64,000 nucleotides of DNA, from positions 1-64,000 of the forward strand of contig SCQE01000041.1 in NCBI GenBank assembly GCA_004321915.1. Direction: 5' to 3'. Every line of letters starts with the position of its first letter. The stretch's first letter is position 1. The position numbers were made by a program, and so were the translations under genes. Origin of the DNA: Nitrospirota bacterium (GTDB taxonomy: Bacteria; Nitrospirota; Thermodesulfovibrionia; Thermodesulfovibrionales; Dissulfurispiraceae). The notes below the pieces were generated by a model. That model was not told where the DNA came from. It saw only the letters and a program-made list of their open reading frames with translations, and made no database searches. Positions 35,669-64,000 of the stretch are shown here, piece after piece.

Positions 35669-36097
35669 ATGAGCAAGATAGCTGTTGTGGTGGATTTAGG
35701 TCATTTCAAAGCATATAGGTTCTCTGAGGGAAATGCGATCGAGCTTTTGGAGTCCTATGACACCCTCGACGCCCACGGAAAATTATGCGACAAGTTGTCC
35801 GATGCCGAGGGCAGTTTTGGAAGAGGTGAAAGAGCAGGCAGCGCTGCAATGGGATCAGGCGAGTCCCATAACCTCGAAACCGAAATGGAGAAAAAAGCGG
35901 TGAGGTTCATGGCAAAAGATATCGATACACTCATTACCCGGGAAGGCACAAATCAATGGTATCTGGCCGCCCCGGAGAGAATAAACAACCAGATTGTAGA
36001 GAACCTGAATCCGGCTGTCAAAGCAGCCCTTGTAAAGAATGTCAAGGCTGACCTCACAAACGCCGAAAAGCTCGACATTCTGAGGCGCTTCGAATAA
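35669..36097 (+). CDS. Host-attachment-protein-like (baeRF family) protein
   Basis: A 142-residue protein. The ATG at 35669 follows GAGGAGG by 6 bases. KIAVVVDLGHFKAYRF at the N-terminus, a Gly/Ser-rich loop, MAKDIDTLITREGTNQWYLAAPERIN, and LTNAEKLDILRRFE at the C-terminus match the family named after a plant-attachment protein, thought to be related to peptide-chain release factors. Its role is unproven. Confidence 0.7.
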   Translation: MSKIAVVVDLGHFKAYRFSEGNAIELLESYDTLDAHGKLCDKLSDAEGSFGRGERAGSAAMGSGESHNLETEMEKKAVRFMAKDIDTLITREGTNQWYLAAPERINNQIVENLNPAVKAALVKNVKADLTNAEKLDILRRFE

Positions 36098-36146
36098 TTT
36101 TCGAGTATGATTTATTTTCACCGGACATAGCCCATAGCATGATGTC

Positions 36147-36176
36147 AACGATAGCAATAATATTATTGCTATCGTT
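36147..36176. promoter_or_regulatory. Perfect 30-bp palindrome
   Basis: AACGATAGCAATAAT is followed directly by its exact inverse with no spacer (36147-36176). It lies 50 bases after the baeRF-like gene. There is no T-run, so a terminator is unlikely; an operator for an unidentified dimeric regulator or an excised-element scar are the options. Confidence 0.5.
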
Positions 36177-36250
36177 TGCTAGTTATCCGGTCCTGCGGAA
36201 AAGACAAGTCCCGGAAGATCGGGCCCAACGTCTGACCATGCTTGAATACC

Positions 36251-36370
36251 GGGAGGCGGATTATTATCACGCCTCAATTCTTTTCTACCCGTCATGCCAA
36301 AACAGGCGAAGCCTTTCTGGAGGCTGCAGAGCGTTACGGCAGGTTTATAGGCAGACCTGTTGAGATATGA
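36251..36370 (+). pseudogene. C-terminal remnant of a gene
   Basis: The frame ending TGA 36368-36370 reads IIITPQFFSTRHAKTGEAFL, then EAAERYGRFIGRPVEI, which looks like the end of a real protein. There is no start or upstream coding sequence in frame. Source gene not identified. Confidence 0.3.
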
Positions 36371-36455
36371 CACAGACAGGACACATAGTTTTTGGCCCCT
36401 AGGCAGACAACCTGAAAAGGTCGAACATAAGGCATTGGCGGAAGCATTAATATTC

Positions 36456-36492
36456 TTGACAAAAAAATATTATTAGATTATTCTAACAATAT
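36456..36492 (+). promoter_or_regulatory. arsR promoter and overlapping operator
   Basis: TTGACA (36456-36461), 17 bases, then TATTCT (36479-36484). An imperfect inverted repeat, ATATTATTAGA (36467-36477) against TCTAACAATAT (36482-36492), 10 of 11 matching, covers the -10 and runs into the ATG at 36491. The predicted transcription start falls at or next to the ATG, and there is no Shine-Dalgarno, so the message may be leaderless. Confidence 0.65.
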
Positions 36493-36829
36493 GGAACTAT
36501 CGAACTGTGCGAAAATCTTTAAAGCGTTATCGAATGAACAACGTCTGAAGATTTTTATCATGCTCTATAAAAATTGTTGCGCGCCCGAAGGGGCCAAAGT
36601 CGGCGCTGAATTCCGCATAAAAAACAACTCTTGCTGCCCAATATCAGGCACTCTGGAAAAGGCCTTTACTAAAATATGCGATTGCATGAAGCTTTCACGT
36701 TCGACGATATCGCACCATTTTAAGGAGCTGCAAAACGCAGGACTGATAACGTGCGAACGCGAAGGACAGATGTATCGCTGCAAGGTGAACAAAGAAGCCA
36801 TAGATTCCATCAAAAATTTTCTGAAGTGA
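36491..36829 (+). CDS. ArsR-family metalloregulator
   Basis: A 112-residue winged-helix repressor. The core LSNEQRLKIFIML...MKLSRSTISHHFKELQNAGLITCEREGQMYRC is typical of ArsR/SmtB proteins. It has an insertion with many cysteines before the recognition helix (KNCC, NSCCPISG, ICDC), which could bind arsenite, a heavy metal or another thiophilic ligand. Autoregulation through the palindrome at its start is very likely. A cysteine-rich mini-protein follows 64 bases downstream. Confidence 0.88.
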   Translation: MELSNCAKIFKALSNEQRLKIFIMLYKNCCAPEGAKVGAEFRIKNNSCCPISGTLEKAFTKICDCMKLSRSTISHHFKELQNAGLITCEREGQMYRCKVNKEAIDSIKNFLK

Positions 36830-36846
36830 TTTTTTTTGCCGGTCTA

Positions 36847-36864
36847 GTTCGAATGTGTTCGAAC
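36847..36864. repeat. Short perfect inverted repeat after arsR
   Basis: GTTCGAA (36847-36853), TGTG, TTCGAAC (36858-36864). It sits between arsR and the small cysteine-rich gene and may be a second operator or an RNA hairpin controlling that gene. Confidence 0.4.
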
Positions 36865-36893
36865 AATAAAAGACCGGGGAGGAGGTGAAAAGT

Positions 36894-37061
36894 ATGGAAA
36901 AAGAGTGCTGCAACTGCAAAGTTACAGAAACCGAAGACGGCTTTAAGGTTGAAGTTAAAGGAGAGGGCCTTAAAGAAATGGTCAAATCCGCCTTCAAAAA
37001 CTGCTGCGGAGAGAATGACGACAAGAAGGGATTCCAATTCTGTTGCGGGTCCGGCAAGTAA
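36894..37061 (+). CDS. Cysteine-rich 55-residue protein
   Basis: ATG 36894 follows GGGGAGGAGG. The product begins MEKECCNCKV and carries three paired-cysteine sites (ECCNC, NCCGE, FCCGSGK), seven cysteines in all, with an otherwise charged, soluble middle. Paired cysteines at both ends suggest metal or metalloid binding. It is bounded by arsR and a terminator, so the two probably form one unit. I do not recognise the family; a metal chaperone or metallothionein-like role is a guess. Confidence 0.65.
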   Translation: MEKECCNCKVTETEDGFKVEVKGEGLKEMVKSAFKNCCGENDDKKGFQFCCGSGK

Positions 37062-37086
37062 GCGCTTAACGTGCAGGCATGTTCCT

Positions 37087-37120
37087 AATAAAAGGCAGGG
37101 TGTTCACCCTGCCTTTTATT
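37087..37120. terminator. Rho-independent terminator
   Basis: A 16-bp perfect stem, AATAAAAGGCAGGGTG against CACCCTGCCTTTTATT, loop TT. The T-run makes it functional after the cysteine-rich gene, and the A-run allows use from the other side. Confidence 0.9.
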
Positions 37121-37224
37121 ATCTCACCTGATTTTACTAATATGCTCCATTATTGAAATAATATTGGAGATCGATGCAGGGAAATTCAAGAAAAAACAGA
37201 GACAAAGGCACAAGGGGGGCTTAA

Positions 37225-37668
37225 ATGGCAAGGATAGGCATTATGACATGCTCGAACGCAACACAGGATTTGGGCTGCTCGTCCGCAAGCTGTCTTGCGG
37301 ACATGAGGAAACGCAGGGGCAGGTTTGCGGATTATCCCAAGGATGATACCCTTGACCTCATAGGCATCATCAACTGCCCCGGCTGCCCCACTCTCACAGG
37401 GTCCGACAAGCTCCTGCATCGCATCAGGGCGCTTACGGAATTCAGGGTGGATGTTATACATTTCACGAATTGTGTCAAAGCGCTTTGTCCCTTCAAGAGA
37501 AAATACAAGACCTCATTGGAAGCGGCGTTTCCTCAAATCAAGGTGGTGATAGGCACTCATCAAGAGCATATTACGGACGATGAATTCAGGGAACGGGTAA
37601 AATGCCTCTTCAGCCGTCCGCGCAAAAACATGGTGGATATGATACTGAACAGAGACCTCGAAGATTAA
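37225..37668 (+). CDS. CGGC-domain putative metal-binding protein
   Basis: A 147-residue protein. MARIGIMTCSNATQDLGCSSASC, then GIINCPGCPT and FTNCVKALCPFKRKY, fit the CGGC family of small cysteine-rich proteins of unknown function. The name-giving motif here is CPGC. IGTHQEH near the end is also typical. A strong GGGGGG precedes the ATG. It lies beside arsR and a sulfite-exporter-type permease, so a metal, metalloid or sulfur theme fits. Confidence 0.75.
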   Translation: MARIGIMTCSNATQDLGCSSASCLADMRKRRGRFADYPKDDTLDLIGIINCPGCPTLTGSDKLLHRIRALTEFRVDVIHFTNCVKALCPFKRKYKTSLEAAFPQIKVVIGTHQEHITDDEFRERVKCLFSRPRKNMVDMILNRDLED

Positions 37669-37685
37669 GAAACACGCCATACTGA

Positions 37686-37718
37686 TAAGATATTGATATT
37701 AGCATTCTCAATATCTTA
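37686..37718. promoter_or_regulatory. 11-bp perfect inverted repeat upstream of the TauE/SafE gene
   Basis: TAAGATATTGA (37686-37696) and TCAATATCTTA (37708-37718), 11-base spacer. There is no T-run. It may be an operator for the permease gene that begins at 37805. Confidence 0.4.
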
Positions 37719-37804
37719 GACTTGAAAGAATTTATGCATAAGCCCGGCCGGAACACCCGACATCCCGAGAGAATGGAAACAAGAACGAGTTACGAGTATT
37801 TGAC

Positions 37805-38767
37805 ATGGAACTTTTAAACGTATCTTTCTCCGTCTCGGGTGTCGAGACCAACCTGTTTTTCCCGCCCTTGGTTGCTATGGTCATTTCGTTCTTCACATCC
37901 ATGGGAGGCGTGTCCGGGGCCTTTCTGCTGCTTCCCTTCCAGATGAGCGTGATGAATTATACGGCGCCGTCCGTAAGCGGCACCAATCATGTTTTTAATG
38001 TAACGGCCATCCCCAGCGGAGTATATCGCTATATAAAAGAGGGCCGCATGGCATGGCCTATGACATGGGTTGTGATCGCAGGCACGCTTCCGGGTGTTTT
38101 CCTCGGATACTACATAAGAGTGCTTTATCTTCCCGATCCTAGGGCCTTTAAATTCTTCGTGGGATGCGTACTGTTGTATATCGGCATACGGCTTGTCAAA
38201 GACCTCACCGTAAAGTCTAAAGATGCTGTAAATTCTCTGGAAGAAAAATTTATTACACAAACTGAAAAGACGAGAACAGGGCAAAACACAACCCTAGTGT
38301 CCGGCATCCCTGCCGATGCGGTAGTGAGAACAATATCGGTAAGCCTTAAAAAAGTAGAATACGAGTTCTGGGGCGAGAGATTTTCATTCAGCACAATAGG
38401 CATGTTCTCGCTTGCCGCAGTTGTAGGCATTATCGGCGGCGTTTACGGCATTGGCGGAGGCGCCATCATTGCGCCCTTTTGCGTGGCAGTATTTCGCCTT
38501 CCGGTATACACCATTGCCGGAGCGGCCCTTATGGGAACATTCATCACCTCTCTGGCAGGCGCTGTTTTTTTCACTGTTATTCCTTCAAGCGGCGGAATTT
38601 CGGCCATGCCCGACTGGCCTTTGGGAATACTCTTCGGGGCAGGCGGTTTCGCAGGCGTATACCTCGGGGCAAGGGCGCAAAAGTTCGTTCCGCAAAGGTT
38701 TATAAAGATCATGCTCAGCATAGTTATAATTTCGGTAGCGGCAAGGTATATCCTACAGTTCTTCTAA
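37805..38767 (+). CDS. TauE/SafE-family permease (sulfite exporter-like)
   Basis: A 320-residue polytopic membrane protein with about eight transmembrane segments in two halves. The repeats start FFPPLVAMVISFFTSMGGVSGAFLLLPF and AAVVGIIGGVYGIGGGAIIAPF, the family's twin glycine-rich motifs. A soluble linker (about 140-195) separates them. These proteins move sulfite, sulfonates or related anions. Sulfur-handling genes occur again at 61.7-64 kb. The start at 37805 has no strong Shine-Dalgarno. Confidence 0.85.
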   Translation: MELLNVSFSVSGVETNLFFPPLVAMVISFFTSMGGVSGAFLLLPFQMSVMNYTAPSVSGTNHVFNVTAIPSGVYRYIKEGRMAWPMTWVVIAGTLPGVFLGYYIRVLYLPDPRAFKFFVGCVLLYIGIRLVKDLTVKSKDAVNSLEEKFITQTEKTRTGQNTTLVSGIPADAVVRTISVSLKKVEYEFWGERFSFSTIGMFSLAAVVGIIGGVYGIGGGAIIAPFCVAVFRLPVYTIAGAALMGTFITSLAGAVFFTVIPSSGGISAMPDWPLGILFGAGGFAGVYLGARAQKFVPQRFIKIMLSIVIISVAARYILQFF

Positions 38768-61677: not shown

Positions 61678-62523
61678 ATGGCGCTGTTTACCGCATCAGG
61701 AAAGATCGAAACCATCAGCCCCGACAAAGCGAAAGAATGGCTCTCCGAAAAGAAAGAAGGCGAAGTTACGATATTGGACGTGCGCCAGCCGCAGGAGTAT
61801 ATTTCCGGCCATATCCCGGGCGCTGTTTTTATTCCTTTGCCCGAACTTATAGACAGGACCGGCGAGTTGGACGCATCGAAGCCCGTACTTACCTATTGCA
61901 GGTTAGGCAACAGGAGCAGGTCTGCCGCCGCGATACTCCTGTCTGACGGCTTTCGGTCCGCACTCACCTTGGACGGAGGCATTAACGCATGGAACGGATT
62001 TGTGGCTAAAGGCGATTACGCTCAGGGGATGTATCTGCTAAAGGGCGGGGAAACGACAGAGGAGTTGATAACTCTCGCATGGTCGCTTGAAGACGGAAGC
62101 AGGCTTTTCTACGAGAAGGCCTCCGGCCTTACGGCTGACAATGAATCAAGGGAAATATTCAGTAGTCTGATGGAGGCTGAAGCGCGGCATAAAGACCATA
62201 TCTTGGCGGCATACAGCATTACCACCGGAAATAAAATCGACGCAGGATCAATGGAGAAAGCAGCGCTTAAAGGTGTCATGGAAAGCGGCGTACAGGTTGA
62301 AGAGGTGATTTCCCTGCTGCAGGAAAAGGGCGCTGCCCTACAGGACATCCTTGAAGTCTCGATGCAGATGGAGGCCAATGCACTCGATCTTTACGTTAAG
62401 ATGCTCAGGGAAATCAAGGACAATAATGCCGGGAAGATTTTCGAATCTCTTATCGCAGAAGAAAAGAAACATCTCTCGCGTCTAGGTAAACTTCTGGGAG
62501 AAAAGACAAGGCCAAAATCATAG
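61678..62523 (+). CDS. Rhodanese fused to a ferritin-like (rubrerythrin-type) domain
   Basis: A 281-residue protein. Residues 25-125 are a rhodanese (TILDVRQPQEYISGHIPGA), active Cys in YCRLGNRSRSAA and LDGGINAWNGF. The rest is a ferritin-like four-helix domain, with Glu/His pairs in SLMEAEARHKDH and LIAEEKKHLSRL giving a di-iron site. It would couple sulfane-sulfur transfer to peroxide or oxygen handling. It follows ctaB and precedes the sigma-54-controlled operon. Confidence 0.85.
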   Translation: MALFTASGKIETISPDKAKEWLSEKKEGEVTILDVRQPQEYISGHIPGAVFIPLPELIDRTGELDASKPVLTYCRLGNRSRSAAAILLSDGFRSALTLDGGINAWNGFVAKGDYAQGMYLLKGGETTEELITLAWSLEDGSRLFYEKASGLTADNESREIFSSLMEAEARHKDHILAAYSITTGNKIDAGSMEKAALKGVMESGVQVEEVISLLQEKGAALQDILEVSMQMEANALDLYVKMLREIKDNNAGKIFESLIAEEKKHLSRLGKLLGEKTRPKS

Positions 62524-62685: not shown

Positions 62686-62726
62686 TAACCACTTTACTGT
62701 AAAACATTCTATCAAGGAGGAATCAT

Positions 62727-63308
62727 ATGCCGGAAATACGGTGGGAAAACGATTTCAATATCTCAATTGCAAGGGCGAAAAAAGAGAACAAGCCTATTTA
62801 CCTCGACTTGTGGTTTGACGGCTGAGTGGGCTGCATTGCTATGAATGCGGGTCCGTATTCTGATGAGAGAGTGCAAGCGTTTCTGGAAGAACAATTCGTA
62901 GCAGTCAAGAGCCAGTGTTTTTGGGACAAACAGACAGACCTGATGCAGAAGTTCAACGTAAAATGGACGCCGACCCTTGTTGTTCTTGACAAGAGAGGAA
63001 TCGAATACCGCAGGATCATCGGATTCGTGCCTGCCGACGACCTGCTTGCGCACCTGCTAATGGGCAAGGCGATGGCGATGTTTTATACGGAACATCTGAC
63101 CAATGCGATCCAAGGGTTCGGGTCAGTTATCGAGAAATACCCGCATGCAGGTCCGGCCCCTGAAGCAGTCTTCTTCCTCGGCGTGGCAGAATACAAAAAA
63201 GGCCATGACCCCAAGGCGCTGAGAAAGGCCTTTGATACGCTAAAAGAAAAATATCCTACGAGCGAATGGGCACGCAGGGCCGAACCTTATGGGACCATAC
63301 CCGCATAA
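62727..63308 (+). CDS. Thioredoxin-fold protein with TPR-like tail, probable selenoprotein (UGA at codon 33)
   Basis: From ATG 62727 (AAGGAGG 6 bases upstream) 193 codons run to 63308, with one TGA at 62823-62825. The text reads KPIYLDLWFDG-U-VGCIAMNAGPYSD: the UGA sits where the first Cys of the thioredoxin CxxC belongs, giving U-x-x-C. The fold continues with a cis-Pro loop (KWTPTLVVLDKRG) and a helical end with TPR-like character (AIQGFGSVIEKYPHAGPAPEAVF). A SECIS-like hairpin follows the UGA. No signal peptide. I read Sec33. It is a thiol-disulfide or peroxide-active redox protein, transcribed from a sigma-54 promoter with a sulfite-oxidase-family gene. Confidence 0.75.
62843..62860 (+). 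promoter_or_regulatory. Candidate bacterial SECIS hairpin
   Basis: GAATGCG (62843-62849), loop GGTC, CGTATTC (62854-62860): seven base pairs, one a G-U. The apical loop begins after 24 bases from the UGA and starts with GG; the E. coli fdhF SECIS loop also contains GGUC. This meets the reported rules for bacterial SECIS. Confidence 0.65.
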
Positions 63309-63354: not shown

Positions 63355-64000
63355 ATGAAAGAAGATTTTAGCAGAAGAGAGTTCATCAAGACTGCCGGTG
63401 TTATTACAGCCATGGCAGCGCTGGGCGATATGCCGTCGTCCCTGTTCGGTTCTGAACTACCTATGGCTACATACCCTGAAAAGACCGGTCTGCTGGTCCT
63501 CACATCCCGGCCGCCGCAGCTTGAAACGCCGATGCATTTGTTCACAGAGCTTATCACTCCGAACAATGCCCTTTTTGTAAGGTGGCATCTTGCAAATATT
63601 CCGCTCTCGGTAGACCTTAATGAATGGAGGCTCAAAGTCGGGGGAAATACCGGGAAAGAGCTTAGCCTCTCTATGGCAGACCTGAAGAAATTCGAAAAAA
63701 TATCTTACACCGCCGTACTTCAATGCGCTGGTAACGGCAGAAGCTTTTTTGAGCCTAGGGTGCCGGGGGGACAGTGGAAAAACGGGGCGATGGGCAACAT
63801 AACTTGGACAGGCGCCCGCCTGAGGGACATACTGAATACAGCCGGCCTGAAGCCCGGCTCCGTGGATGTAATGTTCAACGGCTTGGACTCAGGATCTTTG
63901 CCGTCCGTGCCTGACTTTAAAAAAAGCCTGCCTGTGGACAAAACCCTTGAAGAGGACATAATGGTGGCGTACGAGATGAATGGAGAGCCCCTGACCATGC
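63355..64000 (+). CDS. Tat-exported sulfite oxidase-family molybdoenzyme, partial at the window end
   Basis: The first 215 residues of a sulfite oxidase-type Moco protein. SRREFIKTAG is a twin-arginine signal. YTAVLQCAGNGRSFF supplies the Moco-binding Cys, and ITPNNALFVRWHLANIP and VMFNGLDSGSLPSVPDF fit the SUOX fold. It would oxidise sulfite or another sulfur or oxo substrate in the periplasm. AAGGAGG precedes the ATG. It is downstream of the selenoprotein under the same sigma-54 promoter. It continues beyond 64000. Confidence 0.85.
   Translation, partial: MKEDFSRREFIKTAGVITAMAALGDMPSSLFGSELPMATYPEKTGLLVLTSRPPQLETPMHLFTELITPNNALFVRWHLANIPLSVDLNEWRLKVGGNTGKELSLSMADLKKFEKISYTAVLQCAGNGRSFFEPRVPGGQWKNGAMGNITWTGARLRDILNTAGLKPGSVDVMFNGLDSGSLPSVPDFKKSLPVDKTLEEDIMVAYEMNGEPLTM

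Follow-up and report, generated by a model that had tools for sequence, protein, structure and literature searches.

The gene described here, near the 3' end of the window (the whole 64-kb stretch of DNA that was analysed), is by every test run on its sequence a genuine selenoprotein gene, and the kind of protein that it encodes is already known. Its internal UGA is very probably read as selenocysteine (Sec). The case for this reading comes from the identity of the codon in relatives, the presence of the Sec machinery in the source genome, and a hairpin of the bacterial SECIS (bSECIS) type downstream of the UGA. The predicted product joins a thioredoxin domain, like the C-terminal (gamma) domain of DsbD, to a short helical tail (Table 1).

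Table 1. Features of the selenoprotein gene, in window coordinates
Feature	Position	Strand	Basis or remark
Shine-Dalgarno AGGAGG	62715..62720	+	Direct read; 6 bases 5' of ATG 62727
Selenoprotein gene, 193 aa + stop	62727..63308	+	Predicted DsbD-gamma-like thioredoxin domain and TPR-like helical tail
In-frame UGA, codon 33, probable Sec, first position of U-x-x-C	62823..62825	+	UGA/Cys conservation; Sec machinery
Cys36, resolving Cys of U-V-G-C	62832..62834	+	Invariant in alignment A3; anchor column for the codon-33 reading
bSECIS hairpin, 7 bp, GGUC loop	62843..62860	+	Position, conservation, shuffles, covariation
Codons of W80-T-P-T, cis-proline loop of the thioredoxin fold	62964..62975	+	W80, T81 and P82 invariant in A3
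C-terminal helical tail, TPR-like	63033..63296	+	AlphaFold; CpoB/YbgF matches; TPR_6 below cut-off

The frame of 193 codons begins with ATG and consists of 32 codons, a TGA, and 160 further codons before the TAA that ends it. This arrangement, with the ribosome site in front of it, is exactly as the original prediction had described it, and a GGAGG-like site is also found upstream of most homologues. A standard ORF caller, by comparison, lists only 62826-63308 at this locus, starting from a GTG. The codons on the two sides of the UGA evolve alike: amino-acid identity is 55.5% before it and 55.3% after it, and third positions account for 50% and 51% of the substitutions, respectively. A look for promoter- or terminator-like sites in the surroundings of the gene was negative.

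Relatives of the gene were gathered in two ways. Searches of the tblastn type were run against 396 genomes from the phylum and 176 from the order, and the relatives that they returned mostly contain one UGA. In addition, 84,980 named species genomes were scanned with a pattern built only from residues after codon 33; since the pattern begins after this codon, no bias toward UGA is possible. The scan yielded 207 relatives, from which 80 were retained; the record titles include Nitrospirae, Deltaproteobacteria, Geobacter, Syntrophus, Desulfomonile, Planctomycetota, and Acidobacteria, among others. (An earlier scan, with patterns taken from the window protein, one of them spanning codon 33 as Cys, returned zero relatives.) When codon 33 was read in 140 relatives, it was UGA in 115, a Cys codon in 25, and no other residue in any. 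Thus, the UGA stands where the original prediction had placed it, at the first Cys of the thioredoxin CxxC motif, and wherever the UGA is absent the homologues have Cys. The 120 loci that could be anchored give 111 TGA, 7 TGC, and 2 TGT codons; they include some genomes twice, from two collections, and the distinct TGA rows number 94. At least 94 distinct relatives from several phyla therefore retain the UGA, although these share descent and the matches are phylogenetically non-independent. An initial view that Cys forms are rare was dropped, as the family of Geobacter sp. AOG1 has 40 matches, spread over 39 of its 48 genomes, and these divide equally into 20 that contain one TGA and 20 that are free of stops. 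Half of the 40 Geobacteraceae orthologues were read at codon 33; 16 of them, all from the group free of stops, have Cys, and 4 have TGA.

The original prediction presupposed a host able to make and insert Sec, and all four genes needed to support it, selA, selB, selC, and selD, are present in the source genome (3.63 Mb, 99.6% complete). The tRNA-Sec lies at C9:54242-54335 (71.2 bits, cut-off 47; anticodon tca by ARAGORN). Matches over the curated cut-offs are found for selA (C9:123094-124449, 616 bits), selB (C10:10160-12019, 357 bits), and selD (C39:117781-118704, 362 bits; locus L142:382-1305, minus strand, in genome G000). The selD gene is itself a selenoprotein gene, with one in-frame UGA in the sequence ASCSG-UGA-AAKFSP, the usual Sec position of SelD. 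As 153 of the 176 genomes in the order carry selA, making it nearly universal there, its presence by itself discriminates weakly. Within one family (f24), five genomes with a Cys form have neither selB nor tRNA-Sec. Three UGA-bearing genomes (G142, G211, and G398) have no selA match; they carry selB, tRNA-Sec, or both, and so the selA gaps look like incomplete assemblies. In G142 the UGA gene and tRNA-Sec are present and selA and selB were not found, which is probably an assembly gap. Two Cys forms, L050 (G033) and L059 (G186), come from genomes that do have selB or selA; in the tree they are distant paralogues. A search of the window for a second selenoprotein, in the 1.7-kb ORF gap at 36097-37805 with TGA read as sense, gave nothing convincing.

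The published model of the bSECIS element describes a stem of 4-16 bp and a loop of 3-9 nt that lies 16-37 nt after the UGA, with a G within the first two loop positions and an energy of at most -7.5 kcal/mol (PMC13188914). The window hairpin (GAATGCG-GGTC-CGTATTC) fits this geometry; its stem starts 17 bases and its loop 24 bases 3' of the UGA, precisely as first claimed, and it is the sole match to this sequence within the 64-kb window when up to three mismatches are allowed. Its energy, -6.2 kcal/mol bare and -7.4 kcal/mol in a 29-base context, falls just short of the threshold in both cases; among the UGA relatives, 54 of 94 reach -7.5 kcal/mol, and the best has -11.2. Taken alone, the hairpin sequence departs only mildly from expectation (z about -1.6). 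In silico, a different fold wins once the RNA is lengthened to take in the 15 bases that directly follow the UGA; the hairpin does form in the 29-base piece, the part that the decoding ribosome would leave free.

What places the hairpin above chance is the joint conservation of UGA and hairpin in dozens of relatives. In the 94 distinct UGA genes, the best bSECIS-like hairpin has a mean energy of -7.8 kcal/mol, versus -1.7 for synonymous shuffles, whereas in nine Cys genes the value, -1.9, equals that of their shuffles (-1.9). Likewise, a hairpin of -5 kcal/mol or lower with its loop at 21-26 nt is present in 92 of 98 UGA genes versus 6 of 25 Cys genes, counts in which the rows are related to one another, so that a p-value for the contrast is no strict probability. 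Four of the six UGA exceptions (L038, L039, L045, and L057) form a clade in which the usual hairpin is replaced by an alternative such as GUUCGGCUGGAGGCCGAAU, with its loop at 17 nt, an apparent turnover of the SECIS element. Across 32 rows, 94.2% of the cells in the stem pairs are standard pairs, versus 19-64% when the pairing is slid. In the same rows 18 cells have changed on both sides, and one pair is G-C in 17 and A-U in 15; part of this covariation tracks the split between two subfamilies. Thus a bSECIS-type hairpin lies at the predicted site, where it is conserved and goes with the UGA form. Each of the checks named in the original prediction that was run gave a favourable result, and no observation of the sort that it listed as refuting was made. 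From these features and from what is known of bacterial Sec decoding, a ribosome reaching the UGA at codon 33 would be met by SelB carrying Sec-tRNA(Sec) and bound to the hairpin 17-34 bases downstream, and Sec would then be inserted in place of termination.

The Cys forms of Geobacteraceae (L144-L159) differ in the hairpin codons, including a change of Tyr to Phe in TYP. This suggests that the RNA accounts for part of the protein conservation seen among UGA forms. Once Sec has given way to Cys, the hairpin decays and codons that had been frozen, such as those for Tyr in PYS or TYP, are freed to change. The close Sec/Cys pairs of the Geobacteraceae offer a natural comparison.

The UGA could instead be a true stop, in a pseudogene, through a sequencing error, or ahead of a separate 160-aa protein that starts at GTG 62826, the only start that a standard ORF caller reports. 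Against this stand the retention of the UGA in so many relatives and the 32 upstream codons, which are conserved as well as the downstream ones. The conservation rules out a pseudogene or a sequencing error. The GTG start was rejected as well: ATG 62727 has a good ribosome site in front of it, whereas no such site was noted for GTG 62826, and truncation would cost the thioredoxin fold its first strand and helix. A true stop thus has next to no likelihood, and the original argument against a chance stop is supported. The frame stays open to either side of the UGA, which is also what one would expect if an ordinary residue (Trp, Gly, or Cys) were inserted there, through suppression or a change of the genetic code. 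However, TGA is an ordinary stop in the source genome (of the 47 long, non-overlapping ORFs in the window, 17 terminate with it), and a code change is thereby ruled out. In addition, Cys is the sole alternative residue in relatives, and the hairpin goes with the UGA form, although suppression would not need a hairpin. Insertion of an ordinary residue is accordingly very improbable, and Sec is by far the best reading of codon 33.

The protein matches Pfam Thioredoxin_2 (PF13098) with 47 bits (cut-off 27) and also Thioredoxin_7; TPR_6 matches below its cut-off, and none of the curated NCBIfam models exceeds its cut-off. A thioredoxin fold followed by a short TPR-like tail is predicted with high confidence by AlphaFold (pLDDT 96.9, pTM 0.91). 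In the model the DsbD-gamma-like thioredoxin domain spans about residues 1-110, with residue 33 just before a helix at 34-41, and the tail spans about residues 103-190, with helices at 103-120, 124-137, 143-159, 163-175, and 180-190. The product would thus have a U33-V-G-C36 (UxxC) motif opening the first active-site helix of a DsbD-gamma-type fold, together with a W-T-P-T cis-Pro loop. The nearest solved structures are DsbD C-terminal domains (Z about 15, rmsd about 2-3 Å, ~30% identity, with a VIA-align span of essentially residues 1-121), and this domain is also nearest by sequence. The sequence of the tail matches the TPR proteins CpoB and YbgF. Inspection of the sequence by eye revealed no evident signal peptide or membrane segment.

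Selenoproteins of this description have been catalogued before. A "thiol:disulfide interchange protein" with PF13098 and UxxC appears in reviews (PMC13188914), such a selenoprotein is reported in Syntrophus aciditrophicus, Geobacter metallireducens, and G. uraniumreducens (PMC1794560), and the GOS survey uses the name "Trx-like 2", with cd02953, which is DsbD-gamma (PMC2398784). The window protein shares with this kind the Thioredoxin_2 domain, the U-x-x-C motif, and the DsbD-gamma-like fold, and its close Geobacter and Syntrophus relatives have UGA at the same codon. We infer that it is a member of this kind and that it corresponds to the published entry (reference sequence WP_011366075.1). 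The two branches can nevertheless be told apart. The window branch has the motif FDG-U-xGC-xAMNxGPYS, whereas the Geobacter and Syntrophus relatives have NPG-U-IGC-QQMDAVTYP; the branches are about 40% identical, and the FDG-U-xGC branch is a separate, well supported group in the tree. The literature surveyed yielded no experimental function for the kind.

Other known systems were compared as well. The fold is that of the DsbD gamma domain, but the window protein stands alone, without the transmembrane or alpha domain of DsbD, and has Sec for the first Cys and an extra helical tail. The full-length DsbD model of NCBIfam scores 48.6 bits against a cut-off of 330 and aligns only over profile positions 460-569. 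TsoB (NF045694), a rhodanese/DsbD fusion selenoprotein, contains a related DsbD-gamma-like domain; however, the window protein lacks the rhodanese domain and scores 45.5 bits against a cut-off of 805. The same DsbD and TsoB models are the commonest NCBIfam matches of 23 other aligned members. The VPGUxxT selenoproteins (NF041382/NF041383) are thioredoxin-7-like relatives with weak sequence similarity, whose motif differs from the FDGUVGC of the window protein (18.2 versus 275 bits and 17.2 versus 350 bits). Leptospirillum TFP2, considered as a possible characterised Cys relative, was dropped, because this 110-aa WCxxC thioredoxin lacks a TPR tail.

The protein is probably a cytoplasmic thiol-disulfide reductase that acts through U33 and C36. 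In such a reaction the Sec33 selenolate would attack a substrate disulfide or sulfenic acid, Cys36 would resolve the mixed selenenyl-sulfide, and the helical tail may dock a partner protein. A different role, with Sec decoding still real, would be that of a holdase and redox protector like the chaperedoxin CnoX/YbbN, rather than a plain disulfide reductase. CnoX/YbbN likewise joins a thioredoxin domain to a TPR-type tail, the C-terminal tail of the window protein resembles TPR proteins, and the two best E-values in Foldseek belong to full-length YbbN chains that span both domains. However, the whole chains superpose poorly as rigid bodies (TM 0.43, rmsd 11-12 Å), the tail of about five helices is shorter than that of CnoX, CnoX has SxxC or CxxC in another thioredoxin subtype, the thioredoxin domain of the window protein is closer to DsbD-gamma, and no link to groEL is seen at the locus. 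This role is therefore unlikely. There is a slim chance that the protein is a selenium-dependent chaperedoxin, that is, a stand-alone DsbD-gamma-type selenothioredoxin whose TPR tail serves for docking and which rescues oxidised or persulfidated clients in the cytoplasm of bacteria that are anaerobes and microaerophiles.

The neighbouring genes raise another option, that the protein takes part in sulfur chemistry, for example by reducing persulfide or thiosulfonate intermediates. On the 5' side lie a cytochrome oxidase cluster, a UbiA-family (CtaB-like) prenyltransferase, and a protein with both a rhodanese and a rubrerythrin/ferritin-like domain (61678-62523). Only 47 bases separate the selenoprotein gene from a sorA-like gene on its 3' side (503 bits, below the SorA cut-off of 600), which is followed by a gene for a SorB-like monoheme cytochrome (95.2 bits, above the cut-off of 93). 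These sorAB-like sulfite dehydrogenase genes, for a Tat-signal molybdoenzyme and a cytochrome, occupy 63355-64000 and continue to about 64869 (L141). However, none of the neighbours is conserved across the selenoprotein family, and sorAB adjoins the gene only here among the loci examined; the neighbourhood thus carries little information on the substrate. Furthermore, SorA is exported, as its Tat signal indicates, whereas no signal peptide is evident in the thioredoxin. A part in sulfur chemistry with these neighbours is thus doubtful, and thiol-disulfide reduction in the cytoplasm is the preferred reading.

Sec thioredoxins of this kind are widespread, in Nitrospirota-type, Desulfobacterota-type, Planctomycetota, and other genomes. 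Gene finders normally cut such genes short at the UGA, and because no curated NCBIfam model scores over its cut-off, the annotation of many copies probably consists of a truncated ORF that begins just after it. Two UGA copies, L069 in a Candidatus Methanoperedens record and L123 in a Draconibacterium record, lie on short contigs in archaeal and Bacteroidota bins, respectively. They nest among Nitrospirota-type and delta-type sequences, the genome of L123 has no selA match, and their placement is probably due to binning contamination. Some genomes carry two UGA copies: L066 and L079 in Pelobacter sp. UBA6093, and, in Desulfomonile, L089 with L137 and L103 with L138.
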